DNA of 40,032 nt from Myxococcales bacterium (lineage in GTDB: Bacteria; Myxococcota_A; Bradymonadia; Bradymonadales; Bradymonadaceae), in contig SLJM01000220.1 of NCBI GenBank assembly GCA_007135085.1, positions 1 to 40,032 of the forward strand, read 5' to 3'. This document shows positions 17,436 through 35,289 of this stretch, piece after piece (the stretch's first letter is position 1; every line of letters begins with the position of its first letter). Both the position numbers and the translations under genes were made by a program. The notes beneath the pieces were generated by a model. It was not told the DNA's origin and did not search any database. It worked only from the letters and a program-made list of their open reading frames with translations.

Positions 17436-17514
17436 GTAGGCGTTCAGTCCCCCTTGGAGCGCGGCCAGCTTGGCCGCAAAGCGGACTGGCAGTCCGCGCT
17501 CCAATGAACGCTTA
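17436..17514. mobile_element. 79-bp MITE-like element with nested hairpins and 9-bp target duplication
   Basis: The ends GTAGGCGTTCA (17436-17446) and TGAACGCTTA(C) (17505-17515) are inverted repeats matching at 10 of 11 positions. Inside, TTGGAGC (17454-17460) pairs with GCTCCAA (17498-17504) and encloses two perfect hairpins: GCGGCCA/TGGCCGC (17461-17477, loop GCT) and GCGGACT/AGTCCGC (17481-17497, loop GGC). The element is flanked by the 9-bp direct repeat CAGAAGAAG at 17427-17435 and 17515-17523, a likely target duplication. It codes for nothing and must be moved in trans. It lies just upstream of the secreted-protein gene (start 17411). Confidence 0.75.
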
Positions 17515-17602
17515 CAGAAGAAGATGCCCTCCTATCTGTTGTCGACGAATCTCGACGAAGATTGCGTACTTTTACAAGGTTTTACAGCGACCGCCCTCTC
17601 TT

Positions 17603-18364
17603 TCAGCCGCCGTCTCGCTGATCGGCCCACTCCCGCATTTCTTCCATGAAGCGGTAATGGGTCAGATCCAGGCTAACCGGGGTGATGCTGATCAGGCCGT
17701 CGGCGACGGTATTGCAGTCGCTTCCGGGCAGATCGTGAAATCCCAACTCCGCCCCGCCGAGCCAAAAATAGGCTCGCCTTCTGGGATCGCGCTTCTCCAC
17801 GACGACTCGGCCGTAATTTCTCCGCCCCAATTTGGTGATCTTCGTAGCCGTCTGGGCCGTGACCTGAGGAGGGAAGTTGACGTTGACGAAGGTATCCCGC
17901 GGCATCTGTCGATCGAGCACCGCCCTGGCCAGATCTTGAACGTGTTGAGCCAGGGAATCAAAATTTCGCTCCCCGTATCCGGCCAGACTAAAGGCGATGG
18001 ACGGCACGTCGCACAGCGTCGCCTCGATGGCACCTGCCACGGTGCCGCTATACATGACGTCATCGCCCAGGTTTGCGCCGTGGTTGATCCCCGACACGCA
18101 CAGATCCGGTGGATCATCCAACAAATGGTTGAGCGCGATATAAACGCAGTCCGTCGGGGTCCCGCTGACCGCCATTTGCCGCGGACCGCGCTCTTCGACC
18201 CGCAAGGGGTCGCGCAGGCTGATGGCGTTGCTCACCGCGCTCTGCTCATCACGCGGTGCCACCACCCATACTTCACCGATCGATTCCATCGCCTCCCGCA
18301 GAGCCTGAATACCCGCGGCGTCGATGCCATCGTCATTTGTCACCAGGATAGTCGGTCTACTCAC
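17603..18364 (-). CDS. surE: 5'-nucleotidase SurE
   Basis: 253 residues, the usual SurE length. The family motifs are in order: ILVTNDDGIDAAGI at the N-terminus (the Asp-Asp pair binds the metal), VVAPRDEQSAVSNAIS, VSGTPTDCVYIAL, VSGINHGANLGDDVMYSGTV and VNVNFPP. SurE is a cytoplasmic metal-dependent phosphatase acting on nucleoside 5'- and 3'-monophosphates and polyphosphate. It begins 3 nt after the stop of the small coiled-coil gene upstream, so the two form an operon. The N-terminus immediately before the first beta strand (SRPT) fixes the start. Confidence 0.96.
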   Translation of the reverse strand: MSRPTILVTNDDGIDAAGIQALREAMESIGEVWVVAPRDEQSAVSNAISLRDPLRVEERGPRQMAVSGTPTDCVYIALNHLLDDPPDLCVSGINHGANLGDDVMYSGTVAGAIEATLCDVPSIAFSLAGYGERNFDSLAQHVQDLARAVLDRQMPRDTFVNVNFPPQVTAQTATKITKLGRRNYGRVVVEKRDPRRRAYFWLGGAELGFHDLPGSDCNTVADGLISITPVSLDLTHYRFMEEMREWADQRDGG

Positions 18365-18367
18365 ACA

Positions 18368-18655
18368 TCACTCGTCAGAATCGCTCTTGGACGCCTGGCG
18401 CTTGAGATGGTCCACCTGCCGGTGAAGCCGATCGAGTTCGCGCTTCATGGTGCGCAGATCGTCGCGGGTGGCCAAATTGAACCGGCGAGCGAAATCTTCC
18501 TTTTTTTCGTCCAGTCCGGTCTTAAGGTCGTAAGAGGCGCGAAACGCCTTGGCGACCCCTTTCTGGACCTTCTCGTTGTTCATGATTTTTTGAGCCGTAG
18601 GGCTCTGGAGGGCCTTCATGGCCCCGTCCAAGAGGTCGTCTTTCAAGCTACTCAT
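18368..18655 (-). CDS. Small coiled-coil protein upstream of surE
   Basis: 95 residues, highly charged and helical with no membrane span. The N-terminal half carries KIMNNEKVQKGVAKAFRAS; the C-terminal half (TMKRELDRLHRQVDHLKRQ) has leucines spaced for a coiled coil. It resembles small phasin-like or polyhydroxyalkanoate-type proteins in composition, but that is only a resemblance. It shares an operon with surE (3-nt gap), and a promoter candidate lies upstream. Function unknown. Confidence 0.75.
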   Translation of the reverse strand: MSSLKDDLLDGAMKALQSPTAQKIMNNEKVQKGVAKAFRASYDLKTGLDEKKEDFARRFNLATRDDLRTMKRELDRLHRQVDHLKRQASKSDSDE

Positions 18656-18744
18656 GGCTTCCTCGCCAGGGGACGGAATCGCGAAAATGCGCTCCTTCCA
18701 CAGGCACCAGACAGTCGCTGGCCACCCGCGCAGGAGATGGGCAA

Positions 18745-18773
18745 AAGATTGCTACATAGCCGCTAAAAGTCAA
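18745..18773 (-). promoter_or_regulatory. Candidate sigma-70-type promoter for the coiled-coil gene and surE
   Basis: Read on the minus strand, TTGACT (18773-18768) is followed after 17 nt by AATCTT (18750-18745). The -35 box is strong and the -10 box weak. A start near 18738 would leave a leader of about 80 nt before the ATG at 18655. It sits in the 282-bp divergent gap; for the plus-strand gene at 18938 I see only a TAGAAT at 18895-18900 without a matching -35. Confidence 0.35.
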
Positions 18774-18937: not shown

Positions 18938-21900
18938 ATGGACAAACCTTCTGGAAAGGTCGTTTCAAACCGGCGCCGCCTGATTCTCAGGATCGGCGCC
19001 GTCGCGGCCGGTTTACTAATTTTATTGGCCGGCCTCCTCTGGCTGGCGACCCCGCGCATCATCGAGTCGATGGTGGAAAAGCAACTGGCCAGCCTGGAGG
19101 CTCGTACGGGGTTGAATATCGACGTTGAATCCTTTGAAACCGTGGGGCGCGAGGGAATCGAAATTCGCGGGCTGTCCATCGCCCTTCCAGACGGCGACGC
19201 TCCCCTTGGCCAGATCGAGGCCATCGACGCCTCCATCGATCTTGTCCAGGCCGCCCGAGGCCGCCCGGCCTTTAGTTCTCTAGACATCGAAGGGGTGGCT
19301 CTGACCCTTCATCGCTATGGCGACGGCACGACCGACCTGGACCGTATCCGCGAAGGGCTCGGCGACGCCGAGGACGATGATGACGAAGGGGATGACGACT
19401 TCGATGTCCTCGACCTCGAAGATCGCCTGGAGGCGCTGGCCGAGCGCGGCCTTCGCTATTTCGGCGGCGCCTACCCCGACCTGGTGGTGCGGCAGGCCAG
19501 GCTGACCCTGACCCACGACGAAGGGGCGCAGCCCTGGCCCATAGACTCAGTCTCCACCGACCTCTTCACATTACAGGGCGACCACAAAAGAGCCCCCTTT
19601 GAGATGACCCTCGCCCTCGACGTACCCCACAGCGATTCATTGCAGATTCCCGAATCGGTCCAGCTCAGCGGCTCCCTTCACCGCCCGGTCTTTGAATCCC
19701 TGCTTCGCGTCGACTTTGAAGACGAACTTCGCGTGAGCAATCTGGCTCGTTTGCCCTTTAGCGAGCTGTCACTGACCGGCTTTGAGGTGGCCGAAAATTA
19801 CACCCTCCTCCTTCGCCAGCCTCGCATCGACTCACGACTGGGCCCCAACTCGGAGCGTCTGGCCTCGGCTCAACAGGTCTCTACCAGCTTTGCCGAATGG
19901 ACCACCGACCGCTCCGCCCTGTCCATCGTGGAGCTCCAGGTCGACGAGCCGCGGGTCTATATCGAATACGACGCCCATGGGGCTTCAAACCTGACCCAGC
20001 TCAATCATATCCTGCGCCAGCCCAGGGCACGCTCTACGGCCGCTCACGCCCGGCGAATCGCCACCCTCATCGACGAGGCAAACCGCGACGATGATGACGA
20101 CGGCGACGACGACGCTTCCGATGCTCCCACCGTCGATCCCAACGATCCCGTGGCTCGGTTCTCCTCGCTATTTGAGGGGCTGCCCGTCCAACAGTGGCTG
20201 ACCAATTATCTGCCACGTCAAACTTCGCTTCGCGACGTTCGAATCGTGGTCGACGACGCCAGAGAGCATGAAAATCTGACTCGCCCGGCGTCGCGATTCG
20301 AGATCACCGCCGAAGTGTTGGAGTTGGAGCACCATCCCCTGCGCGGAATTTTGGAGGGAGACTTCAAATTCCAGGTCATCGCCGGCGACGATAGTGCGCG
20401 AACGGACATCGAATTTCATATTCCCTATCGCCAGGGCAATTGGGACGTCTCCGTCGACATCGACGCATTGGAGCTCGCCCATTTCTCCCAGATCTTTGGA
20501 CCGCGCCTGGCCCAATACCTCCACGGAGGAGAGGTCACGGCCACCCTGGAGGTGGCAAACGCCGGGGAGGATGGCGGCGCCGTCACCCGCTTCGACGGGC
20601 TTCTGGCCTTGCGCGATTTCCGCGTTCATATGCCGGCCATCGCCGAAGACCCCATCGAAGTACCCTCGGCGAGCCTGTTGTTGGACGGCTCCTACGATCC
20701 GGCACTGCCCGTGCCGCCACCGGAACTGGTCTTTAGGGGCTACTCCGTCGTCGACTCCGATCCTGCCGCTGAGGACGAAGACGACGACGCCCAGGAAGAC
20801 CCCTACCCCTTCGATCCTCCCGACCGGGGCGCCTTTGTCATCGACAATGCCCGGGCTCAACTCTCCGATCTAGAGACCCAGTTCAGCCTGGCGATTCACG
20901 GCATCGACGGCACGAACCGGCCCAACCGGGTCACCATCGAGGTCGACCTGGAGCCCACCCCCCTGTCGGCGATCATCGACGCCGTCCCCGCCGCTATCCG
21001 AGGCCCCCTGGATGGGCTGGAGATGCGGGGCGACCTCACCTGGAAATACAAATTGGAGGTCCCCCTCTACGAGGCGAGCACCATGGCCTGGGAGGCCGAC
21101 GTCCATCTGTCACCCGATTTCGAGATCATCTACATCCCCGAGCCGGTCGACGTATTTAAGCTCACCGACGAATTCGAACATACCATCACCGATGAGTGGA
21201 CCGCCGACGTACGATGGGTGGAGCGCGACTTTTTCTATGAGCGCACGGTCACTATCCCCGAGATGACCCCCATCCCGGCCACCTGGATATTGGAAAATAC
21301 AGGCATCGAATTGAGCCGACTCGACGGCATTCGCCGCCAGCGGGAGTGGCCCCCTGTTCCGGAGTGGAGTCCCTATCTGGGATTGAGCCGGGCAGTGCTG
21401 GACAGCCCTGAGTATTGGCTGACCTCTCACGCCCTGGACAAATCAACTTCCCGCCCCCCCTGGGCAAAAGAGGAACGGCAAGCCCCGGCAGAGCCCTCGT
21501 TCGTCGACTCCTTCTTCCAGGGATTCGAGGAGGGCGATTCAGCCGCCGAAGACCAGTTTAATACCCCGTCGACCGAAGACGACGACGCTGCGGGCCTTCT
21601 GATCTACGAGAAGCCCGAACCCCTCAGGCCCCACGAAACTGAAATCCAGGTCGATCCCGATCGCTACGGCCCCTACGTCTTCGTACCGCTCCACCACATC
21701 TCGCCATATATGGTACGCGCCATCCTCACCACCGAGGACACCTCCTTCTTTACCCACGACGGCTTCAACTTTTTGGCCATTCGCCACTCCGTGGAGGCCA
21801 ACCTGGAAGCGGGCCGCTATGTACGTGGGGCGAGCACGATCAGCATGCAATTGGTCAAAAATGTCTTCCTCGACCGAAGCCGCGTCCTGTCACGGAAACT

Positions 21901-22390
21901 GCAGGAAGTGGCCCTGGTCTGGCTTATGGAGAGCGTGGCTGACGTCCCCAAAGAGCGGCTTATGGAGGTCTATCTCAACGTCATCGAATTCGGCCCCGGC
22001 ATCTTCGGAATCAATGAAGCGGCCATGCATTATTTCGGCAAACGCCCTGACGAACTGACCATCTCCGAGTCAGCCTGGTTGGTCAGTATCGTGCCCAACC
22101 CCAAGCGCTATCATCAATATTACGATCGCGGCGAAATCACGCCCGGTTGGTTTCGGCGCATGTCGCGTTATATTCGTGCCATGTATAATCGGGACCGCAT
22201 CACCGAAGTGGAAATGGAAGCCGCATTGGAGATTGTGCCCCAGTTCTATATCCCTGAAGATGGTGATCCCCTGCTGCGAGAAGACGCCGGCGAAGTGGTC
22301 CCCTCCGTGGAGCCCGATCAGGCGGTGACCACTGATGAGGACGGCGACGCAGGTGACGAAGCCGAACCGGCAGTTCCTCTCTTCGATTAA
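18938..22390 (+). CDS. AsmA-like protein fused to a GT51 peptidoglycan glycosyltransferase
   Basis: 1150 residues. A membrane anchor (residues ~12-35, LILRIGAVAAGLLILLAGLL) is followed by about 850 residues of AsmA/DUF748-like beta-rich sequence (for example GLNIDVESFE, IEIRGLSI, then repeated strands), broken by three acidic linkers (DDDDEGDDDFD, DDDDDGDDD, EDEDDDAQED). The C-terminal ~200 residues are a glycosyltransferase 51 domain: TTEDTSFFTHDGF with catalytic E933, RGASTISMQLVKN (from ~963), RKLQEV with E990, MEVYLNVIEFGPGIFGI and ISESAWLVSIVPNPKRY. No transpeptidase domain follows, so it would only polymerise lipid II glycan strands in the periplasm. AsmA-like proteins are bridge-like lipid carriers or envelope scaffolds; the fusion is uncommon. 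It stands alone with its own upstream region. An acidic tail closes the protein. Confidence 0.88.
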   Translation: MDKPSGKVVSNRRRLILRIGAVAAGLLILLAGLLWLATPRIIESMVEKQLASLEARTGLNIDVESFETVGREGIEIRGLSIALPDGDAPLGQIEAIDASIDLVQAARGRPAFSSLDIEGVALTLHRYGDGTTDLDRIREGLGDAEDDDDEGDDDFDVLDLEDRLEALAERGLRYFGGAYPDLVVRQARLTLTHDEGAQPWPIDSVSTDLFTLQGDHKRAPFEMTLALDVPHSDSLQIPESVQLSGSLHRPVFESLLRVDFEDELRVSNLARLPFSELSLTGFEVAENYTLLLRQPRIDSRLGPNSERLASAQQVSTSFAEWTTDRSALSIVELQVDEPRVYIEYDAHGASNLTQLNHILRQPRARSTAAHARRIATLIDEANRDDDDDGDDDASDAPTVDPNDPVARFSSLFEGLPVQQWLTNYLPRQTSLRDVRIVVDDAREHENLTRPASRFEITAEVLELEHHPLRGILEGDFKFQVIAGDDSARTDIEFHIPYRQGNWDVSVDIDALELAHFSQIFGPRLAQYLHGGEVTATLEVANAGEDGGAVTRFDGLLALRDFRVHMPAIAEDPIEVPSASLLLDGSYDPALPVPPPELVFRGYSVVDSDPAAEDEDDDAQEDPYPFDPPDRGAFVIDNARAQLSDLETQFSLAIHGIDGTNRPNRVTIEVDLEPTPLSAIIDAVPAAIRGPLDGLEMRGDLTWKYKLEVPLYEASTMAWEADVHLSPDFEIIYIPEPVDVFKLTDEFEHTITDEWTADVRWVERDFFYERTVTIPEMTPIPATWILENTGIELSRLDGIRRQREWPPVPEWSPYLGLSRAVLDSPEYWLTSHALDKSTSRPPWAKEERQAPAEPSFVDSFFQGFEEGDSAAEDQFNTPSTEDDDAAGLLIYEKPEPLRPHETEIQVDPDRYGPYVFVPLHHISPYMVRAILTTEDTSFFTHDGFNFLAIRHSVEANLEAGRYVRGASTISMQLVKNVFLDRSRVLSRKLQEVALVWLMESVADVPKERLMEVYLNVIEFGPGIFGINEAAMHYFGKRPDELTISESAWLVSIVPNPKRYHQYYDRGEITPGWFRRMSRYIRAMYNRDRITEVEMEAALEIVPQFYIPEDGDPLLREDAGEVVPSVEPDQAVTTDEDGDAGDEAEPAVPLFD

Positions 22391-22487: not shown

Positions 22488-24548
22488 ATGCACCAAGCAG
22501 GCAAGCCAAATAGCCCCTCCATGAAGTCCATCGAGGGCCTGGTACAGCGATTCGAGCGACGGCTGCGCCTGCAGCGTATCGTCACGGGGGTCGTCGAAGG
22601 CGGCGCGCTCGGTCTGATGATCGCCGGCCTGTCCATCGCTGCCGTGCGCACGGGCTGGGCCGATCCGGTCATGTTGTGGTTTGCCCTGAGTTCGGCGCTG
22701 ATCTGCACCGCCGCCGGGGCGTTGATTCGAGGCTCCCAGCCCATCGACACCGTCGCCGCTGCCCAACAGATCGACCGAACCCACGGACTCCACGACCGCC
22801 TTTCAACAGCCATCTCCCTGGCTCGTCGCGATGTCCTCGGCGACGATGATCGAGCCTTCGTAAGCGCCCAATTACAGGACGCCCTGCGCCACGTCGACGG
22901 CGTCGACCCCCGTCGGGCTGCCCCCTGGAAGAGACCACCCGATCTCTTCTTGCTCGGATTGGCCGGTTTGGCTGTGCTCTCCATTGGACTGTTGCCCGTT
23001 CCCGACCACGAACAGCCCCTGCCCGAGACCTTCGCCGCCACCTACGGACAGGTCCTCGATGGCGCCACTCTGGCCATGGAGCGCGACCGGTTGAACGAGC
23101 TGCGGCGCCGACTCGATGAATTACCTGATGACAAAGCCGAAGCCATCGCCGACGAGATCGAAGCGCTCTTAGACGCCGTGGAAAATCGCCAGATCTCGGA
23201 ACGAGAATTTCTGGAGCAGATCGAAGCGCTCCTCCAGGACCATTTCGGTGACGACAGCGACGCCCGCGAATTGGAGACCCTCGCCCAGGCCCTGGCCGAA
23301 GCAGCCCTCGACTCCAGGAGTGAGCACGACGAGGCCCTGGGCGAAGATTTGCCCGAATTGGAGCAGGCCATGGAGGCCCTCGAAGAGGGTGATTTTCAGG
23401 CCGCCTCCGAGGCCTTGGCCGAGCTGGCCGACCGAATCGACACAGAGGGCATCGACCCCGATGACGCCGAACGGCTCGCCGATTTTCTCGAGACCTTCGC
23501 CGAAAACCTGGACAGCCGCGACGAGCGCCTCCAGGAACTCTTCGAGGAGCACCGCGACACCTTCGAGGAGCTCGCCGAGCAATTCGACAACGACGGCGGC
23601 ATGGACGAACAGCTCTTAGAGGACGCCCGCCAGCAGGCCGAAAACGCGCAGCAAGAGCGCGACGCCTATAATGAATCCGACGCCCGCCGCCAATTGGAGC
23701 AGCTCTCCCGTGAATTGGAGCAGACCGCCGAGGAATTGCGCGACCAGGCCGAGCAGGATCGCCAGGACGGTGACGACGGCCAGGATGGCCAGCCTGACGG
23801 CGGCGACGAAAGGGAAGGTCCTGCTCAGGCCCACGAAGACGCCCCGGACGACGCCGAGCGCATCGAGCCCGGCCAGAGTGACGACGGCGATAATGACCGC
23901 CCGGACTACAGGAACGAAATCGGCCGCCAGCTCGACGACGTCTCTCGCCAGCTTGAGGAGATGGACCGCCAGAAGCAGCGACAGCAACAACGGGAGCAAG
24001 CCCGCCGACAACTCGAGGAGATGCGCGAGAGCATGTCGCGAAGCGGCGGCGACTCCGAACAAGACCAGCGTCGTGGCGAGCAGATGGAAGACTATATGGA
24101 TCGCGCTCGCGGCGAGCAGCAAGAAGGTGAAAGCCAGTCCGGCGGCGGCGATGACGGCGAAGAGGGCCTGGATCAGATCGCCGATGGACAGGGCGACTCT
24201 CCTCACGATGGCGGTGAGGGCGGTGAAGACGGCCAAGGCGCTGACGCCGCCGGCAGTGGCGGTCCGGAAGACGATGACGGCCTCCTCGACGACGGCGACG
24301 GCAGCGGCGACGACATCGAATTCGCCCACCGTGACGAACAACTCTCCGGCACAGAAGGTGAAGAAGGCCCCACTCGCTCCGAGATCATCCGAAGCGCCAG
24401 CGAAGAAGGTTTTGCCACCGTGGACTATCAGGACGTCTACGCCGATTATGAAGCCATCGCCGAAGAGGTTATGGAGCGCGAGGACGTCCCCGACGGCTAT
24501 CGCTACTATATCAAGCGTTATTTTCAGCTCATTCGACCGGCGCAATAA
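22488..24548 (+). CDS. Membrane-anchored coiled-coil protein of a MoxR/VWA operon (DUF4175-like)
   Basis: 686 residues. The N-terminus has two membrane helices (GALGLMIAGLSIAAVRTG and MLWFALSSALICTAAGALI), with a third near residue 150 (LFLLGLAGLAVLSIGLLPV). The rest is a long, very charged helical region: heptad-rich coiled coil (~200-440) and a low-complexity DGQDGQ/EGGEDG section (~440-630). The C-terminus (YQDVYADYEAIAEEVMERED then YRYYIKRYFQLIRP) is globular; similar tails occur in proteins encoded beside MoxR genes in Myxococcota and Planctomycetes. It is the first gene of a tight operon with moxR (23 nt apart). Its likely role is as a partner or scaffold of the MoxR system; exact function unknown. 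Confidence 0.75.
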   Translation: MHQAGKPNSPSMKSIEGLVQRFERRLRLQRIVTGVVEGGALGLMIAGLSIAAVRTGWADPVMLWFALSSALICTAAGALIRGSQPIDTVAAAQQIDRTHGLHDRLSTAISLARRDVLGDDDRAFVSAQLQDALRHVDGVDPRRAAPWKRPPDLFLLGLAGLAVLSIGLLPVPDHEQPLPETFAATYGQVLDGATLAMERDRLNELRRRLDELPDDKAEAIADEIEALLDAVENRQISEREFLEQIEALLQDHFGDDSDARELETLAQALAEAALDSRSEHDEALGEDLPELEQAMEALEEGDFQAASEALAELADRIDTEGIDPDDAERLADFLETFAENLDSRDERLQELFEEHRDTFEELAEQFDNDGGMDEQLLEDARQQAENAQQERDAYNESDARRQLEQLSRELEQTAEELRDQAEQDRQDGDDGQDGQPDGGDEREGPAQAHEDAPDDAERIEPGQSDDGDNDRPDYRNEIGRQLDDVSRQLEEMDRQKQRQQQREQARRQLEEMRESMSRSGGDSEQDQRRGEQMEDYMDRARGEQQEGESQSGGGDDGEEGLDQIADGQGDSPHDGGEGGEDGQGADAAGSGGPEDDDGLLDDGDGSGDDIEFAHRDEQLSGTEGEEGPTRSEIIRSASEEGFATVDYQDVYADYEAIAEEVMEREDVPDGYRYYIKRYFQLIRPAQ

Positions 24549-24571: not shown

Positions 24572-25585
24572 ATGGCCCCCGAGAAATCACCGGTGAGTAA
24601 TCCGGAAGAGCAAGTCCAGGAATTTCAAAAAGATTGCGGACGAATCCGCGAAGAAATCGGCAAGATGATCGTCGGCAACCGGGACATCATCGACGGCGCG
24701 ATCATGGTCATGATGGCCGGCGGCAACGTCCTCCTCGAGGGCGTGCCGGGCCTGGGAAAGACCATGCTCGTACGTACCTTGAGCCAGGTCCTCGGCCTCG
24801 ATTTTTCGCGGATTCAATTTACGCCGGACCTGATGCCCTCCGATATTTTGGGGGCGACGATCATCGTCGAGGAAGAGGACGGCTCCAAGCATTTCCGCTT
24901 CGAGAAAGGCCCCATATTTAGCCACATCATCCTCGCCGACGAGATCAACCGGGCCACCCCCAAGACCCAGTCGGCGATGCTCGAGGCCATGCAGGAGCGT
25001 AGCGTCACCGTCGGCAATACGACCCACAAGCTCGATCCGCCGGTCTTCGTCCTCGCCACCCAGAACCCCCTGGAAATGGAGGGCACCTATCCCTTGCCGG
25101 AGGCTCAACTGGACCGGTTTTTATTCAAGCTGACCATTCGCTTTCCCGACCTGGACGACCTGCACACCATCATGGACCGCACCACTCAGGCCGACACCCC
25201 CGAGGTGGAGCGAGTCGTCGACCGGGATCGAATCCTGGCCATGCGCACTCTGGTACGGCACGTCCCGGTGGCCCGCCACGTCCAGGACTACGCTCTGCGC
25301 ATCCTCCAGGCCACTCACCCGGACCACCCGAACGCTCCGGAGATGACCAAACGCTATGCTCGCTTTGGTTCGTCTCCTCGCGGCGCCCAGGCCATATTGA
25401 GCACCGCCCGGGTTCACGCCCTGATGGACGGACGATTCAACGTCTCCTGCGAGGACGTGCGCCACACCGCCGTGCCCGCCCTTCGCCACCGGATCATCCT
25501 CAACTTCGAGGGCGAAGCCGAGGGGATCGAGGCCGACCAGATATTGGACGCCATCTTTGAGGAAACGCCGGAGTCCAAGTCGTGA
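24572..25585 (+). CDS. moxR: MoxR-family AAA+ ATPase
   Basis: 337 residues. Walker A is GVPGLGKT (57-64); Walker B and the following helix are ILADEINRATPKTQSAMLEAMQE in two pieces, ILADEINR and TQSAMLEAMQE. Sensor and arginine-finger segments follow (VLATQNPLEMEGTYPLPEAQ, LDRFLFKL). The C-terminal lid (RHVPVARHVQDYALRIL, SPRGAQAILSTARVHALMDGR) is typical. MoxR proteins are cytoplasmic AAA+ chaperones that work with VWA proteins to mature protein complexes or envelope components. The DUF58 and VWA partners are the next three genes in the operon. Confidence 0.96.
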   Translation: MAPEKSPVSNPEEQVQEFQKDCGRIREEIGKMIVGNRDIIDGAIMVMMAGGNVLLEGVPGLGKTMLVRTLSQVLGLDFSRIQFTPDLMPSDILGATIIVEEEDGSKHFRFEKGPIFSHIILADEINRATPKTQSAMLEAMQERSVTVGNTTHKLDPPVFVLATQNPLEMEGTYPLPEAQLDRFLFKLTIRFPDLDDLHTIMDRTTQADTPEVERVVDRDRILAMRTLVRHVPVARHVQDYALRILQATHPDHPNAPEMTKRYARFGSSPRGAQAILSTARVHALMDGRFNVSCEDVRHTAVPALRHRIILNFEGEAEGIEADQILDAIFEETPESKS

Positions 25586-25625: not shown

Positions 25626-26525
25626 ATGGCACAGGCCGCGCCACAATCTGCCGATGCCTTCGACGAGGCGTTCCTCAAAAAGTTGGAATACCTCTATATC
25701 GTCTCCCAGAAAATCGCCGCCGGAAAGCATAAGGCCAAGCGCAAGATGCGGCTCGTCGGCAGCGGCATCGACTTCGCCGATCACCGCCAATATTCGCCGG
25801 GCGACGACGTGCGAAACCTGGACTGGCGGGTCTACAACCGCACGGAAAAACTATTCTTGAAGCTCTACGAGGAAGAAGAAGATCTCCATATCTACTTCCT
25901 CGTCGACACCAGCCGATCCATGCACCTCGGGGCGCCCAACAAATGGAATCGGGCCCGCCAGGTCGCCGCCGCCCTGGCTTATATTGGTCTGTCGAACCTG
26001 GACCGGGTCAGCGTCGTACCTTTCGCCTCCAAGATCACGGACCGCATGGCTCCCACCCGCGGCCGTGCCCAGATCTTCAAGGTCTTCGACTTCCTCGACC
26101 GCGCCCAGCCCGGCGAGCAGACCACCCTCAAATCGGCGTTCAAGACCTTCGTCAGCCAGAACAAACGGGCCGGCCTGGCCGTGGTCATCTCCGACTTCTA
26201 CGACCCCGAGGGATTCGAAGAGGGCCTCAACATCCTGCGCTACCACCGCTTCGAGCCCATGGTCATCCAGCTCTTCGACGAGCGCGAACTCTCCTTCGAC
26301 CTGCAGGGCGACGTAGAGCTCATCGACTGCGAAACCGGCGAGCCCCGCCAGATCACGGTCACCCCGGCGATGATGCGAGAATATACCCGCGTCTTCGAGG
26401 AATTCTGCCAGGAACTCGAGACCTACTGCACCCAACGCCAGATCCTCTATTTCCGCTCCCCGATCCAACAATCCTTCGAGGACCTGGTCCTCAAGATCTT
26501 CCGCGCCGGAGGATTCTTAAAATGA
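25626..26525 (+). CDS. DUF58 protein with VWA-like fold
   Basis: 299 residues. The DUF58 signature is clear: GSGIDFADHRQYSPGDDVRN then LDWRVYNRTEKLFLKLYEEE. A VWA fold follows with a MIDAS metal-ion site, DTSRS, near residue 96. No membrane span is seen, so it is cytoplasmic. GGGAAG lies ahead of the ATG. DUF58 proteins are standard partners of MoxR ATPases and link the ATPase to membrane VWA proteins; here the BatA-like gene starts 14 nt later. The family is known from BatI/aerotolerance-type operons, though no specific substrate is established. Confidence 0.93.
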   Translation: MAQAAPQSADAFDEAFLKKLEYLYIVSQKIAAGKHKAKRKMRLVGSGIDFADHRQYSPGDDVRNLDWRVYNRTEKLFLKLYEEEEDLHIYFLVDTSRSMHLGAPNKWNRARQVAAALAYIGLSNLDRVSVVPFASKITDRMAPTRGRAQIFKVFDFLDRAQPGEQTTLKSAFKTFVSQNKRAGLAVVISDFYDPEGFEEGLNILRYHRFEPMVIQLFDERELSFDLQGDVELIDCETGEPRQITVTPAMMREYTRVFEEFCQELETYCTQRQILYFRSPIQQSFEDLVLKIFRAGGFLK

Positions 26526-26538
26526 AGGACTCGAAACT

Positions 26539-28419
26539 ATGCAGTTAACCGGACTACCGATCGAGACGGTGGGGTGGCTGGCGGCAGCAGCGGCGCTGCT
26601 TATCACCGTTCTCTATGTGCTCAAGCTGCGAAAGCGGAAGGTGGAGATCCCCTTCTCGCCGCTGTGGGGACGTGTGGTCACGGCCCAAAAGGACCGCACC
26701 GATTGGTGGCGCCGGCTGCAGCGATTTTTGTCCTGGTTGATTCATATCGTCATCGCCGCCCTTCTGGCCTTTGCCATGTTGGGGCCCCATTTCGACGACG
26801 AGGTCCTCGACGAGCGCCATATTCTCATCCTCCTCGATAACTCGGCGAGCATGGGAGCCACTGACGTCACCGGCGGGCATAGCCGGTTTGATGTGGCGCG
26901 AGACAAAGCTCGTGAAGTCCTCGATACGGTGGGGGGCAACGATCGGGTGATGGTCGCCCTATTTAGCAATCGCGTTCAACCGCTGGGTCCCTTTGTGGAC
27001 GATCCCTCGCTGGTCGAGGCGTCTCTGCGAGATCTGCAGGTCACGGCCAACCCCGTCGATCTGGGACAGGCCCTGGATTTCGCCGTCGACAGCCTCCGCG
27101 ATCGACAGCCGGCGGAGCTGGTCATCATCACCGACGGCGCCGGCTACGATCCGGACTACCCGCCGGACGTGGACTTCGGCGAGGAGGTCACGGTGAGGCA
27201 CCTGGCCATCGGTGAGCGCTCGGAGAACCTCGCGATCACCGCCTTTAACGCCCGTCGGTATCCGTCGAATCGCATGGACCACGAGCTCTTCGTGGAGGTC
27301 CGTAGTTTCTTCGACCGCCCAGTGGACGCCACCCTCGAGCTCTCCGCCGACGGCCGACTCATCGACACGCAATCGCTGAGCCTGGGGGCCCGCGAAATTC
27401 ACCGTCAGTTCTACCCTGGCCAGGCCACCGCCGGCGAACGCCTGGAGGCCCGCGTCCGCCTGAACACCCCGGACGCCCGCGACGTCTTCCCATTGGACGA
27501 TCGAGCCTACGCGGTCATCCCCCCACCGAGCAGGCTGTCCGTGCAGCTCGTCTCCGAGGGCAACCTCTTCATCGAGGGCCCCCTATTGCTCAATAACCAC
27601 GTCGACCTCGAGCGTCTCGACCCCGACGGCTATGACCCAAACGCCGAATTCGACGTCACCATCTTTGACCGTGTCGCCCCCGAGCCCCCGGCCACGGGTC
27701 ATCTGCTCTATTTGAACCCGCCCGAAGAGGGCTCACCTTTTGAGATCACCGGCCTCGAGGACTCGCCGATCGTCACTGACGTACGCCGCGAACATCCCCT
27801 GATGCGATGGGTGACCCTGGCGGACCTGAATATCGGCGAAACCAACACCTTCGCCCTCGCCGTCGACGACACCCCCGTGGTCGCCGCCTTCGGCCAGCCC
27901 ATCATCGTCGCCCGCGACGACGGTGAACGCCGAAAAGTGGGCATTGGCTTTGACCTTCGAAATAGCGACTTCCCCCTTCGCGTGGGCTTTCCTATCTTCG
28001 TGCTCAACGTCCTCGACTTCTTCGCCGCCGACGACGTGGAGATGGCCCGCTCCTATGCCACGGGCCAGACCTGGGCGATTCCCGTCGCCCGCGACGCCGA
28101 CACAGCGGAGATGATCGACCCCGACGGTCAGCGCCATCGAGCCGCCATCCAGCGCGACGCAGCCCTATTCTACGGCGAAAAGCCCGGCTTTTATCACCTC
28201 GAGACCAACGCCGGCGACATCACCATCGCCGCCAATATGGCCAACCCCGAAGAGTCGGATATCACCCCCCATATCCTCGAATTCGAATCGGCCCAGGTCG
28301 ATCATCAGATCGACGACCTGCTCTTTGACCGCCGCCAGATCTGGATCTGGCTGCTCTTCGCCGCCCTCGCCCTGCTGTTGGTCGAGTGGTTCACCTACAA
28401 CCGACGCTGGACGGTATGA
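26539..28419 (+). CDS. BatA-like VWA membrane protein
   Basis: 626 residues. The N-terminus is the BatA/aerotolerance-type module: helix VGWLAAAAALLITVLYVLKL, the KRKVEIPFSPLW segment, a second helix LIHIVIAALLAFAMLGPHF. A VWA domain follows with MIDAS D100-N-S102-A-S104 and the VIITDGAGYD segment. After ~residue 230 the protein is beta-rich, then ends with a helix (IWIWLLFAALALLLVEWFTYNRR), so the middle part probably lies in the periplasm. GAAGGA lies 10 nt upstream. It ends 3 nt before the next gene. Such proteins are thought to act with MoxR in envelope integrity or stress survival. Confidence 0.92.
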   Translation: MQLTGLPIETVGWLAAAAALLITVLYVLKLRKRKVEIPFSPLWGRVVTAQKDRTDWWRRLQRFLSWLIHIVIAALLAFAMLGPHFDDEVLDERHILILLDNSASMGATDVTGGHSRFDVARDKAREVLDTVGGNDRVMVALFSNRVQPLGPFVDDPSLVEASLRDLQVTANPVDLGQALDFAVDSLRDRQPAELVIITDGAGYDPDYPPDVDFGEEVTVRHLAIGERSENLAITAFNARRYPSNRMDHELFVEVRSFFDRPVDATLELSADGRLIDTQSLSLGAREIHRQFYPGQATAGERLEARVRLNTPDARDVFPLDDRAYAVIPPPSRLSVQLVSEGNLFIEGPLLLNNHVDLERLDPDGYDPNAEFDVTIFDRVAPEPPATGHLLYLNPPEEGSPFEITGLEDSPIVTDVRREHPLMRWVTLADLNIGETNTFALAVDDTPVVAAFGQPIIVARDDGERRKVGIGFDLRNSDFPLRVGFPIFVLNVLDFFAADDVEMARSYATGQTWAIPVARDADTAEMIDPDGQRHRAAIQRDAALFYGEKPGFYHLETNAGDITIAANMANPEESDITPHILEFESAQVDHQIDDLLFDRRQIWIWLLFAALALLLVEWFTYNRRWTV

Positions 28420-28422
28420 GTC

Positions 28423-31155
28423 ATGATTAGCACTCCCCGACTCATCAAAAACGTCTTCTTCTGGATCGTCTTATTGGCGGTCTGGGCCGTCGGTCTATGG
28501 GCCTATCTGGAAGGCCTGGTCTTGCCCGGCGTGGATACGCTGAGCTTCGAATATGGTGAGCGTACCTTCGAGGTTCTGCGGCCCCTCTTCTTCGGACTCC
28601 TCCTGGTCATCCCCGCCCTGGCCATTGGCACCCGCTATTCATTATCGGATCTGCCCGGCTATCAGCGGGGAATCAATATCGCCCTGCGCTCCCTGGTCAT
28701 CGCCGCCATCGTCGCCTCATTGGTGCAGGTCGTGGTTACCAGCTTCGACTCCCGGGTCTCCACGATCTATCTCGTCGACGCCTCGGCCTCCTTCCCCGAC
28801 GAGGCCCTCGATGAGGCTCTGGGCCATATCAACGCCGCCGTCGACGAGCTCGACGACGACGATCAGATCCAGGTCATCGCCTTCGCGGCGCGCCCCTACC
28901 TGGTCGAGCCCGGCGCCGACGGCCGCTACGCCGAGATTCCCCGACCGCAGTCCACAGACGACCTCTACGATACGGATATCGCCGCCGCCCTGCGCATGGC
29001 CTACGGCCTCTTTCCCGAGGACAACCTCAAGCGGGTGGTCCTGATGACCGACGGCAACGAAACCCACGGCGACTTTTTGGCCGAGGTCAACCGAGCCGCC
29101 GACTTCGGAATTCGTCTCTTCGCCTACGAGATCGACTACGAGCCCCGCCCGGAGGTGCTCATCGTCGACGTCGACGCCCCGCACAATATCGAGATGGGCG
29201 CCCCCTTCCACCTGACGGCGCGCATCTTCTCCACCCACGACGACCGCGTGGATCTGACCCTGTGGCAGGACGAATTTCGCGACGAGGAAAAGACCATCGA
29301 CGTCGCGCGGGGCATCACGGAGGTGCGCTTTCAGACCGAAGTATCGGAGCCGGGATTTCGCCGCTTCCACCTGGAGATGGAGGTCCACGGACAGGACACT
29401 CACCCGGAGAATAACGAATACGTCCACACCGCCCATATCAGCGGAGAGCCGCGAATTTTATATATCGAGGGGGAGATGCGCTCCCGCCATTATCTGGAAC
29501 GGGCGTTGCGCGACGAGGACTTCGACGTGCGCACCCGCAGTCCGGCGGGAATGCCCACCTCCCTCGACGAGATCGACGAATTCGATCTGATCTTGCTCTC
29601 CGATGTGCGCGCCGATGAGTTCACGTCGCAACAAATGGATCTTCTCGACGCCTATGTTCGCCGCCTGGGCGGGGGATTGATCATGGCCGGCGGGGAAGAC
29701 TCTTTTGGCCCCGGCGGCTGGCAGCAAACTCCGGTGGAACGCCTCATGCCCGTGAGCTTCGAGAGTCAGGAGCAGCGAGACACCCCGAGCCTTGCTCTGT
29801 TATTGGTCATCGACCGCTCGGGCTCCATGGCCCAGCACCGCCGGATGGAGCTCGCCCGCGAGGGCGCCCGGGCGGCGGTCAACGAGCTTCCAGACGACGC
29901 CGAGATCGGCATCCTCGCTTTCGATCACGAAGTGGTCACCGTGTCCCGCCTCCAGACGGTGGCCAACCGGGCGCGGATCATCAATCAGATCGACCGCATT
30001 CAAATCCGAGGCGGCACGGACATCGCCCTCGCGCTGGAAGAGGCCTACGACAAGCTCGTCTTTCATCCGGCGGCGATGCGCCACGTCATCTTGCTCACCG
30101 ACGGCATCTCGCCGGAAAATAACATCTTTACCGAGACCCTGCCGGCGATGCGCATCGAAAATATCACGGTCTCCACCGTCGCCGTCGGCGAAGGTGCCGA
30201 GACCTCGCTGATGCGCCGCGTCGCCGATCGCGGCAACGGCCGCTTCTACTACACCACACGCCCCCACGACGTGCCGCGGATCTTTATCGACGAGACCCGC
30301 GCCGTCTCCCATTCATCGCTCATCGAAGAGCCCATCCGTGCCCAGGTCTCGAGCCGCTCCCAGGTCTTGTCGGGCATCCAATGGGATCGCTCGCCATATC
30401 TGTTGGGCTACGTATCGACCACCCCCAAATCACAGGCTGAGATCTTATTGGCCACCGACAGTGGCGAGCCCCTCCTGGCCCGCTGGCGGGTGGGATTGGG
30501 AAAGACGGCTGTCTTCACATCGGATCTCAAAAACCGCTGGGGTGCCCAGTGGGTCCGCTGGTCGGGCTACCCCCAATTCTGGGCTCAGCTCATCCGGGAC
30601 ACCATGCGCACCGACGATCGGGACCACCTGCCCATGCATGCCTTTTTGGACCAGGATCGAGGCCGGGTCGTCGTCGACGCCATCGGCCCCGACGATCGCT
30701 TCATCAACGACCTGACCTCCACCATCGAAGTCACCGACCCTGAAGGAGAATCGCGCACCTACGAGCTCTACCAGATCGCCCCGGGCCGCTACGAAACCAC
30801 CTTCGAGCTCGACGCCTTCGGATCCTACGAAATCACCGCCCACCATGAGCGAGACGGCGCCACCTTCGCCACCAGCCAGACCAGCCTGTCCTACCCCTAT
30901 CCCCGGGGGCTTTCCTTTACCGAACCCAACACCGAACTCGTCACCCAGGCGGTCCAACTCGCCGACGGCATTATCGACCCCACGCCGGCCCAGATCTTCG
31001 ACCCCGATGGCGAAGAGGTCCGCTACCGCCGCCACCTCTGGCCCTATTTCGCAGGCCTGGCCCTCCTCTTGTTGCTCCTCGACTTGGGCCTTCGCCGAAT
31101 CCGCTTGTCCGGCAAGACCGACGTCAGCTGGCAGGATCTGGTCGCGAAATCCTGA
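28423..31155 (+). CDS. Double-VWA membrane protein with class I glutamine-amidotransferase-like domain
   Basis: 910 residues. Three N-terminal helices (FFWIVLLAVWAVGLWAYL, LFFGLLLVIPALAIGTRYS, ALRSLVIAAIVASLVQVVV) precede a first VWA-like domain whose MIDAS is D119-A-S-A-S with VVLMTDGNETHGD. A middle domain (RILYIEGEMRSRHYLERAL, FDLILLSDVRADEF, RRLGGGLIMAGGEDSFGPGG) has the GATase1-like fold found in this family, without an obvious catalytic triad. A second VWA follows with D464-R-S-G-S and VILLTDGISPEN, then a C-terminal helix (LWPYFAGLALLLLLLDLGL). Large proteins of this type are the usual last gene of MoxR-DUF58-BatA operons. Both VWA sites look intact. Confidence 0.92.
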   Translation: MISTPRLIKNVFFWIVLLAVWAVGLWAYLEGLVLPGVDTLSFEYGERTFEVLRPLFFGLLLVIPALAIGTRYSLSDLPGYQRGINIALRSLVIAAIVASLVQVVVTSFDSRVSTIYLVDASASFPDEALDEALGHINAAVDELDDDDQIQVIAFAARPYLVEPGADGRYAEIPRPQSTDDLYDTDIAAALRMAYGLFPEDNLKRVVLMTDGNETHGDFLAEVNRAADFGIRLFAYEIDYEPRPEVLIVDVDAPHNIEMGAPFHLTARIFSTHDDRVDLTLWQDEFRDEEKTIDVARGITEVRFQTEVSEPGFRRFHLEMEVHGQDTHPENNEYVHTAHISGEPRILYIEGEMRSRHYLERALRDEDFDVRTRSPAGMPTSLDEIDEFDLILLSDVRADEFTSQQMDLLDAYVRRLGGGLIMAGGEDSFGPGGWQQTPVERLMPVSFESQEQRDTPSLALLLVIDRSGSMAQHRRMELAREGARAAVNELPDDAEIGILAFDHEVVTVSRLQTVANRARIINQIDRIQIRGGTDIALALEEAYDKLVFHPAAMRHVILLTDGISPENNIFTETLPAMRIENITVSTVAVGEGAETSLMRRVADRGNGRFYYTTRPHDVPRIFIDETRAVSHSSLIEEPIRAQVSSRSQVLSGIQWDRSPYLLGYVSTTPKSQAEILLATDSGEPLLARWRVGLGKTAVFTSDLKNRWGAQWVRWSGYPQFWAQLIRDTMRTDDRDHLPMHAFLDQDRGRVVVDAIGPDDRFINDLTSTIEVTDPEGESRTYELYQIAPGRYETTFELDAFGSYEITAHHERDGATFATSQTSLSYPYPRGLSFTEPNTELVTQAVQLADGIIDPTPAQIFDPDGEEVRYRRHLWPYFAGLALLLLLLDLGLRRIRLSGKTDVSWQDLVAKS

Positions 31156-32024: not shown

Positions 32025-33596
32025 ATGAGCTCTTCACGTGAGAATCGACGACAACTCTACGAGCAGCTCGTCGGACAGACGGTGGCCAACCGCTACCAGA
32101 TCGCCAGCCTCATGGGTTTCGGCGGCATGGGCGCTGTCTACGAAGCGGTGGACCGCAATATGCAGCGGCGCATCGCCCTCAAATATATCCCCTCTCATGA
32201 CCCGGTGGCCACGGAGCGCTTCAAGCGCGAAGCCCTGACAGTGAGCAATCTGCGCCACCGCAATACGGTCACCGTCTTCGACCGCGGCGAGACCAGCGAC
32301 GGCTTTTTATTTTTGTCGATGGAGCTTCTGTCCGGTCGAACCCTGACAGACCTCATCAAACAAGAGAGCCCTCTCAACCCGGAGCGGGTGGTTCATATTG
32401 CCTCCCAGATCTGCGGTTCACTGGGCGAAGCTCACGAATCGGGCATCGTCCACCGCGACGTCAAACCGGACAATATCATCCTCATCAAAGACGACGGCGA
32501 CCCGGACTTTGTCAAAGTCCTGGACTTCGGCATCGCCAAAGCGGTCAGTCGAGAGGACGACGTCACCCTCACCGGCGACGGGCGCATCATCGGTACCCCT
32601 CGCTATATGTCGCCCGAGCAGATCCTCGGCGAGGAGATCACCCCACGCAGCGATATCTACAGCCTGGGTTGCATCATCTTCGAGATGCTCTGCGGCGCTC
32701 CTCCCTTTCGAGGAGGAACGACGACGGCGCTGATGATCAGTCACGCCCAGGATCCACCGCCTCCATTCGCCGAGCGCCTCTCCGAACAGGCCCTCCAACA
32801 GATCCCCGTGGGCCTAGAGCATGTGGTTCGCCGGGCGATGTCAAAGCGCCCCTCGAACCGCCCCCAGAACACCGACGAGCTTCGCCGCGAACTCGAGGAA
32901 GCTCTGGCGGCTCACCGCGCCGGCCGGCCTGCCAACGTCACCGCCCCGGCACCGGAGTTGCCGGCCACGCCGCCCCCGACGCTTCAGCAAATGCAAAATA
33001 CGGGCGCAGGCGGCTCCTCCCAGGGCTCGACCCTGGTCATTGCCATCGCCCTCCTGGCCGTGCTCATCTCTTTGACCGCCACGGCCATCGTCGTCTTGGA
33101 CGGAGGCGGCGGTGACGAACCGGTCGATGGCGACGCCCTCGCCGAAGCTGTTCCGCAGCCGCCACCGGACGCAGTCGCTCCCAGCGAGCGCACCGAGGAG
33201 GCCGACGAACCCGAAGAAGAGTCGCACCGCCCCACCTCGGTCTCCGTCCGTGACACCATCGCCATTCGCCTCGAGAGCGACCCCGACGGCGCCACCGTAT
33301 CTGAGGGCGGTCAGGAGCTGGGCACCACCCCATTTAACCTCACCGTTGGTCCCAATACGAGAACTCTGGAATATTCCCTGAGCCGCAGCGGCTACAGAGA
33401 CAAAGATATTACGGTCGAGATCGATCCCGACGGTGACGATCTCCAGGAATTCGCCTTCGAACTGGAGCGGCGACGGCCGACTCGCGTACAGCGTCGACCG
33501 CAGCCGCAGCCCGAAGAAGAGCAGGCGCCACGCCGCCCGGCCATCGAGCTTCTCAGCGACGACGACGATTCCGGCCCCTTCGTTCCCACTCTCTAG
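32025..33596 (+). CDS. Transmembrane Ser/Thr protein kinase with C-terminal PEGA domain
   Basis: 523 residues. The cytoplasmic kinase domain (~15-290) has the glycine loop GFGGMGAVYE, the catalytic Lys in RRIALKYIP, the HRD loop HRDVKPDNIILI, DFGIAKAV and GTPRYMSPEQ, so it should be active. A Pro/Ala linker leads to a membrane helix (LVIAIALLAVLISLTATAIV, ~335-357). Outside lies an acidic spacer and a PEGA domain (~412-485: RLESDPDGATVSEGG, ELGTTPFNLTVGPN). PEGA domains are surface beta-sandwich modules that may sense envelope state or ligands. Such Hanks-type kinases are abundant in Myxococcota. A hairpin follows the stop. Confidence 0.95.
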   Translation: MSSSRENRRQLYEQLVGQTVANRYQIASLMGFGGMGAVYEAVDRNMQRRIALKYIPSHDPVATERFKREALTVSNLRHRNTVTVFDRGETSDGFLFLSMELLSGRTLTDLIKQESPLNPERVVHIASQICGSLGEAHESGIVHRDVKPDNIILIKDDGDPDFVKVLDFGIAKAVSREDDVTLTGDGRIIGTPRYMSPEQILGEEITPRSDIYSLGCIIFEMLCGAPPFRGGTTTALMISHAQDPPPPFAERLSEQALQQIPVGLEHVVRRAMSKRPSNRPQNTDELRRELEEALAAHRAGRPANVTAPAPELPATPPPTLQQMQNTGAGGSSQGSTLVIAIALLAVLISLTATAIVVLDGGGGDEPVDGDALAEAVPQPPPDAVAPSERTEEADEPEEESHRPTSVSVRDTIAIRLESDPDGATVSEGGQELGTTPFNLTVGPNTRTLEYSLSRSGYRDKDITVEIDPDGDDLQEFAFELERRRPTRVQRRPQPQPEEEQAPRRPAIELLSDDDDSGPFVPTL

Positions 33597-33619
33597 TCCC
33601 CCTCGTCTCAACAGGGGGA
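33597..33619. other. Hairpin between the two kinase genes
   Basis: TCCCCCT (33597-33603) and AGGGGGA (33613-33619) are perfect inverted repeats with a 9-nt loop, beginning at the base after the kinase stop codon. There is no T-run. It may separate the two kinase messages; weak evidence. Confidence 0.35.
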
Positions 33620-33634
33620 GCCCCTATCGAGCCT

Positions 33635-35272
33635 ATGGAAAAAGTCTGTCCTACATGCCAAACCGAATATGGCGACGACGTCGAATTCTGTCCCCATGAC
33701 GGAATGAAGCTTCGCCGCCGTCGCGGTGGAGACGACGAAGATCCAATGATCGATCGGATCCTCGACGGCCGATGGGTCATCGAGTCCAGGATCGGCATGG
33801 GTGGCATGGGCGCGGTCTATCTGGGGCATCAGCGGAGCGTGGATCGCAAGGTCGCCATCAAGACCCTTCGCTCATCGCTGGCAGACACCGATGATTTCGT
33901 GGACCGCTTCTTTCGCGAGGCCCGGGTGGCCACCACGATCAACCACCCCCACTGCGTCACGATTCACGACTTCGGCCAGGACGAGGACGGCACCCTCTAT
34001 CTGGCCATGGAGTTTCTCGAAGGCCAGGATCTGACAAGCCGGATCAGCGACGGCGATATCAGCATCGAAGAAGCGCTGCGCATCGGCAGTCAGATCGCCT
34101 CGGCCCTGTCGGCGGCTCACCAGGCCAATATTGTCCACCGCGATCTCAAGCCGGACAATATCTTTTTGCTCGACATCTCCGACGGGAGCACCTTCGTCAA
34201 AGTACTCGACTTCGGCATCGCCAAGGTCATGGGCGCCGACACGCAGATGACCAAGACGGGACAGGTCTTTGGCACGCCGGCCTATATGAGCCCCGAACAA
34301 TGTCAGGGCCACACCATCGACGGGCGCTCCGACCTCTATAGCCTGGGCTGCATCCTCTACGAACTCGTCGGCGGACGCCCGCCCTTCGAGGGAGAGACGC
34401 CCATGGCGGTGCTCATGGCTCATGTGGCCAATGACGTGCCTCCTCTGAGCACCATCGATGGCGTGATGGACGGCGTCGATCCCAGGGTCGAACAAGAGAT
34501 CATGGCTCTGTTGTCAAAGGATCCTGACGGACGTCCGGCCACGGCATCGGAGGCCAAACAGCGCCTCAACGCCTTATTGTCGTCGCTCAACGCGCCGGAC
34601 CTGTCCTATACGGCGCCCCAGCAGGTGCCCAGGTCAACGGCTCCTACCACGGCAACCGCCGCCTCCTCTCGCCCTCAGGCGCCCGATACGGCCCCCGCCG
34701 ATGCCGCCAGCGGCGGCGATATTATGACCACTGCCCAGATCCAGCGGCAGGCCGGTTTTGGGGGCAGCGCACGGATCGCCATTGTCGCCATCATCGGCCT
34801 TCTCCTTGCCGCATTGGTCAGCGGTGCCATCTTTACCTTCGCCGTCCTCGCCGACGACGATGAAGACCCCGTAGAAATAGCCGACCAGGACGAAGCCCCC
34901 CTGGAAGAAGACCTGGCCGCAGCTGACGATCCCGATCATGACCAGCCGGCTGATGATGATGAAGAATTGGCTGCCGCAGATGACCTGAAAGACGATGCAG
35001 ACGACGAAGAAGATGGCGAGGCTTCCGACGACGAAGACGACGAAGAGCTCCAGGAGCGAGCTGAAGCTGATAGCGCCGACGACGAGTCCCGTGATACGGC
35101 CAGCCCCCGCGAACGCGACCCCGCACCTCGTCCACGACCGAGACCGCGACCGGAGCCGGTCGTCGAACCCGAGCCCGAGCCCGCGCCGCGTCCGACCCCG
35201 CGACCGGCTCCCAGCCCAGCCGAACCGGAAGAGGAAGAAGACGACCCTCTCGACTTTTTCGGCGATGATTGA
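33635..35272 (+). CDS. Transmembrane Ser/Thr kinase with N-terminal zinc ribbon and acidic/Pro-rich outer tail
   Basis: 545 residues. It opens with a zinc-ribbon-like motif, C5-P-T-C8 and FC19-PHDG, a form common ahead of myxobacterial kinases. The kinase domain (~45-320) has IGMGGMGAVYLG, the catalytic Lys in KVAIKTLRS, VHRDLKPDNIFLL, DFGIAKVMG and FGTPAYMSPEQ. A membrane helix lies at ~377-405 (IAIVAIIGLLLAALVSGAIF). The outer part is first acidic (DDDEEL-type) and then a Pro-Arg/Pro-Glu section (RPRPRPRPEP), ending DFFGDD. The stalk has no recognisable ligand domain and may span the cell wall. The next gene, for a BamA-like protein, begins 17 nt after the stop. Confidence 0.94.
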   Translation: MEKVCPTCQTEYGDDVEFCPHDGMKLRRRRGGDDEDPMIDRILDGRWVIESRIGMGGMGAVYLGHQRSVDRKVAIKTLRSSLADTDDFVDRFFREARVATTINHPHCVTIHDFGQDEDGTLYLAMEFLEGQDLTSRISDGDISIEEALRIGSQIASALSAAHQANIVHRDLKPDNIFLLDISDGSTFVKVLDFGIAKVMGADTQMTKTGQVFGTPAYMSPEQCQGHTIDGRSDLYSLGCILYELVGGRPPFEGETPMAVLMAHVANDVPPLSTIDGVMDGVDPRVEQEIMALLSKDPDGRPATASEAKQRLNALLSSLNAPDLSYTAPQQVPRSTAPTTATAASSRPQAPDTAPADAASGGDIMTTAQIQRQAGFGGSARIAIVAIIGLLLAALVSGAIFTFAVLADDDEDPVEIADQDEAPLEEDLAAADDPDHDQPADDDEELAAADDLKDDADDEEDGEASDDEDDEELQERAEADSADDESRDTASPRERDPAPRPRPRPRPEPVVEPEPEPAPRPTPRPAPSPAEPEEEEDDPLDFFGDD

Positions 35273-35289
35273 TTCTCTTGTCCAAATTT

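Follow-up and report, generated by a model that had tools for sequence, protein, structure and literature searches.

An AsmA-like arm joined to a predicted monofunctional GT51 peptidoglycan polymerase in Myxococcota and other bacteria

GT51 peptidoglycan glycosyltransferases require lipid II, a substrate that resides in the inner membrane, and in the monofunctional enzyme MtgA (about 230–270 residues) the GT51 domain directly follows the transmembrane helix. In the 40,032-nucleotide stretch of DNA analyzed here (the window), one gene encodes a protein in which hundreds of residues separate these two elements, an arrangement that needs explaining given that loss of the membrane anchor impairs the glycosyltransferase activity of PBP2a (PMC4632607). 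The central question raised by this locus is how a GT51 domain so distant from its anchor reaches lipid II.

The corresponding open reading frame has an ATG start, one stop codon, and 0 internal stops. As proposed in the initial annotation, and as confirmed here from the reading frame, Pfam matches, and a motif check, it encodes a single 1150-residue chain combining an AsmA-like region with a complete GT51 domain that includes both E933 and E990, without a transpeptidase. The AsmA-like part is shorter than the ~850 residues originally assigned to it, however, as the arm covers only about 700 residues and the rest is a linker. The features of the gene are as follows:

18938..22390, + strand: AsmA-GT51 fusion protein, 1150 residues (open reading frame, Pfam, kept in close relatives)
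18974..19045, + strand: N-terminal transmembrane anchor, residues about 13–36 (hydropathy scan; helix 12–36 in the model)
19070..21193, + strand: AsmA/DUF748-like beta-rich arm, residues about 45–752 (Pfam, beta alternation, models)
20963..21193, + strand: conserved block at the C-terminal end of the arm, residues about 676–751 (invariant columns including P684 and G698)
21197..21673, + strand: predicted disordered linker, residues 754–912 (pLDDT; gap in other families)
21674..22252, + strand: GT51 peptidoglycan glycosyltransferase domain, residues about 913–1105 (Pfam, phmmer, Foldseek)
21734..21736, + strand: catalytic glutamate E933, EDTSFF motif (invariant in aligned fusions)
21905..21907, + strand: second catalytic glutamate E990, RKLQE motif (invariant in aligned fusions)

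The anchor is the only strongly hydrophobic stretch detected by the hydropathy scan of the fusion protein, while the block at residues 676–751 is the best-conserved region outside of GT51 across aligned fusions. In the model of the window protein, pLDDT values are 23–40 over most of the linker, with residues 754–868 and 879–912 below 50 and without a regular fold. This linker is an insertion specific to the family of the window protein and is missing from most other fusion families, in which GT51 follows the arm almost directly.

The identity of the C-terminal domain was established by three approaches, namely a Pfam match to Transgly (PF00912, 154.9 bits vs a cut-off of 27, residues 915–1065), a phmmer match to the GT51 domain of Aquifex PBP1A (E = 2e-28), and recovery of the GT51 fold by Foldseek (TM-score normalized by target, 0.86–0.89). 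All GT51 motif residues are present, and E933 and E990 are unchanged in all 36 aligned fusions. No transpeptidase family was matched by Pfam anywhere in the 1150-residue protein, and nothing transpeptidase-like was found C-terminal of GT51. The protein scored below the cut-off of the MtgA equivalog model in NCBIfam (TIGR02070, 155.4 vs 182.65 bits). The intact set of GT51 residues predicts that the fusion is a putative lipid II polymerase.

For the arm, two Pfam families were matched above their cut-offs, DUF748 (PF05359, 66.7 bits vs 50, best stretch at residues 10–142) and YdbH-like (PF11739, 30.7 bits vs 26.3, residues 26–272), and among the 36 aligned fusions, 33 matched DUF748 and 13 matched AsmA. 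Together with the Transgly match, this bears out both family assignments of the initial annotation. The arm also displays an alternation of hydrophobic residues at the beta angle (z = 4.0), a pattern found in E. coli AsmA, YdbH, YhdP, and TamB (z of 4.9–11.3), compared to about 0 or below for GT51 and globular controls, and this alternation is retained in distant members. The C-terminal domain of TamB (PF04357) had no Pfam match in the fusion protein. Since hhalign comparisons between arm profiles and single E. coli AsmA-like sequences were weak (about 20% or less), AsmA membership is based on the Pfam profiles and the hydrophobic pattern. Structure modeling, suggested in the initial annotation for both parts and restricted here to sequences from the window and from related loci, yielded a high-confidence GT51 domain but low confidence before residue 500 of the window protein, and a PDB fold search with this model returned GT51 matches only. 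A compact 650-residue member from Flavobacterium produced a better model (pLDDT 84, pTM 0.76) with a transmembrane helix, a beta-rich arm, and GT51 in this order, and the best non-GT51 PDB match of that model was the TamB chain of TamAB (9xdc), although this match was weak (E = 0.01, prob 0.25). Taken together, profiles and models support the arm being a member of the AsmA family with a predicted groove.

Nearly all close relatives of the window genome encode the fusion, as anticipated in the initial annotation, and the same architecture was found in dozens of separate assemblies, some of which consist of a single contig, so that chance is excluded. An assembly or frame artefact is likewise ruled out by these dozens of independent loci. 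In a sample of the phylum (Myxococcota, judging by its named members), roughly 165 of 284 genomes carry the fusion, based on a hand count of matches at an E-value of 1e-60 or better, a level at which the listed matches take in the arm. A profile of the arm end and GT51 matched somewhere in 283 of these 284 genomes, many of the matches being ordinary PBPs. Within Bacteroidia, we counted 37 of 149 sampled genomes with matches extending into the arm at E < 1e-80, many of which additionally hold a stand-alone MtgA-like gene. A scan of named genomes detected the fusion in Myxococcota MAGs, an Oligoflexales MAG (Bdellovibrionota), an Eisenbacteria MAG, several Bacteroidota (Flavobacterium, Pedobacter, Mucilaginibacter, and Phocaeicola), and probably a Thermoanaerobaculia MAG (Acidobacteriota). 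Among the fusions, the arm is highly variable in both sequence and length while GT51 is invariant, and in short members GT51 begins as early as residue about 365–440.

In a GT51 tree, the fusions and MtgA were separated from class A PBPs with an SH-aLRT support of 100, and the fusions, minus a second paralogue group, were supported at 88. Constraining all 71 fusions to a single clade led to a log-likelihood 22 above that of the free tree (p-AU 0.87). Arm profiles from distant families matched each other at 97–100% probability in most hhalign comparisons, with matches to the arm of the second paralogue confined to the C-terminal part of the arm. Judging from these sequence comparisons, the GT51 domains of the fusions make up a single lineage adjoining MtgA and separate from class A PBPs, and because the arms are homologous across phyla, one old fusion would be the simplest account. 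Repeated independent fusions are disfavored, as the one-clade constraint raises the likelihood and the arms are homologous.

Based on these observations, we propose, with roughly even confidence, that the protein is an inner-membrane-anchored monofunctional peptidoglycan polymerase in which the AsmA groove acts locally on a lipid, positions the enzyme, or both. An AsmA-type beta-groove arm would have been inserted between the transmembrane anchor and the catalytic domain of a GT51 enzyme from the MtgA side of the tree. This GT51 domain would polymerize lipid II, with crosslinking presumably left to PBPs since the fusion lacks a transpeptidase. The groove may hold the lipid chain of the substrate, of the product, or of a regulatory lipid beside the enzyme, and the arm may also, or instead, be a stalk keeping the enzyme off the membrane. 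In the window's family, the 160-residue linker argues against a rigid hand-off from groove to active site. A stricter version, in which the arm is a mere stalk or docking scaffold that places GT51 or recruits partners and any lipid in the groove is irrelevant, seems somewhat doubtful. It would fit the contrast between a highly variable arm and an invariant GT51, as well as the disordered linker in the window's family, but not the preservation of hydrophobic beta alternation in distant members, the conserved stretch with which the arm ends next to GT51, or the homology of the arm across phyla.

In its genomic context, the fusion probably shares one operon with the five genes that follow it on the same strand:

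22488..24548, + strand: 686-residue protein with hydrophobic N-terminal segments and a long acidic coiled region (adjoins the fusion in relatives)
24572..25585, + strand: MoxR-type AAA ATPase (Pfam AAA_3, 207 bits; synteny)
25626..26525, + strand: DUF58 protein (family match; synteny)
26539..28419, + strand: BatA-like VWA protein (family match; synteny)
28423..31155, + strand: VWA/glutamine-amidotransferase-like protein (family match; synteny)

This gene order is found in the window's family and in some further families. The 686-residue protein had no Pfam or NCBIfam match, and no other recognized peptidoglycan gene was found in the probable operon. Elsewhere in the window, a SurE gene (17603–18364, − strand, 210.6 bits) adjoins the fusion in relatives and is overlapped by a longer, probably spurious open reading frame (17504–18766, + strand). 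Two adjoining Ser/Thr protein kinases, one of them with a PEGA domain, are encoded at 32025–35272 (+ strand), and an Omp85-family protein with POTRA domains is encoded at 35269–37602 (+ strand), on the same contig as the fusion and downstream of it by about 13 kb.

The window genome also encodes two SEDS proteins and several class A PBPs as normal wall machinery, so that the fusion represents an added polymerase, and none of the six GT51 matches in this genome is a stand-alone MtgA. A second, weaker fusion was identified on another contig: on C356 (L086:5936–8407, − strand), a GT51 protein of 823 residues displays a long beta-patterned N-terminal arm and groups with the fusions, with no AsmA Pfam family matched. 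Contig C320 (L080:2528–5842, − strand) encodes a divergent class A PBP-like protein of 1104 residues with a weak GT51 match (45.9 bits), in which the RKxxE motif is not evident and GT51 may be inactive. A separate TamB homologue of 1885 residues is present as well.

This TamB homologue bears on a second alternative, namely that the arm is a true bridge between the inner and outer membranes, or an outer-membrane sensor, coupling wall polymerization to outer-membrane lipid supply or position, which we consider unlikely. The AsmA family does include the phospholipid transporters YhdP, TamB, and YdbH (PMC8593681, PMC8912898), and the window arm, at about 700 residues, approaches the length of YdbH (879 residues). 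YhdP and TamB are about 1260 residues long, however, and "could easily span the periplasm" (PMC8912898), and most arms of the fusion families fall far short of these E. coli proteins. With GT51 starting at residue about 365–440 in short members, the fusions do not have a periplasm-spanning arm in common. In addition, TamB meets Omp85 through its C-terminal end, the very position occupied by GT51 in the fusion, TamB is encoded separately in the same genome, and GT51 needs a substrate located in the inner membrane. Hence, of the coupling suggested in the initial annotation, the covalent union of an AsmA arm with what appears to be an active monofunctional GT51 stands at the sequence level, while an inner-to-outer membrane lipid bridge is partly disfavored by the short arms, the C-terminal GT51, and the separate TamB, and a conduit reaching all the way to the outer membrane is less likely than a local role. 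That the groove conducts lipid II, or its carrier, from the inner membrane to the distant GT51 for polymerization away from the membrane appears quite unlikely. Finally, polymerization of another undecaprenyl-linked glycan instead of lipid II would be in line with an extra polymerase alongside PBPs and SEDS and a probable operon without other recognized peptidoglycan genes, but is highly improbable given that every GT51 motif residue is retained and that we know of no GT51 with a substrate other than lipid II.

The fusion would illustrate that an AsmA lipid groove can serve an enzyme instead of a membrane bridge, or it would tie wall synthesis covalently to the family of lipid bridges. As the fusion appears to be old, is kept across phyla, and is found in Bacteroidota, these possibilities are testable in tractable organisms.

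Both halves of this protein are known, and we found no description of the joined chain in full-text searches of the open-access literature. A study of F. johnsoniae listing AsmA-like proteins does not mention a transglycosylase (PMC12045153). The initial annotation had held that the fusion might prove both common and already characterized; it is indeed common in several phyla, with no characterization found in this open-access literature. Compared to the AsmA-like/DUF748/YdbH family, the fusion has the same N-terminal transmembrane helix, profile matches above cut-off, and beta-groove sequence pattern, but ends in an enzyme and often has a much shorter arm than known bridge members. It resembles TamB in its transmembrane anchor and beta-rich periplasmic arm, with a fold match of the compact relative that is weak, and differs from it by the lack of a PF04357 domain and by the presence of TamB as a separate protein in the same genome. 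The GT51 domain is shared with class A PBPs (PBP1A/1B/1C), yet the fusion has no transpeptidase and the two GT51 lineages are split with a support of 100. The closest counterpart is MtgA, which is the nearest lineage in the tree and similarly has a single N-terminal transmembrane anchor and a GT51 domain without transpeptidase, whereas in the fusion hundreds of AsmA residues are found between the transmembrane helix (residues 13–36) and GT51 (from residue 913).
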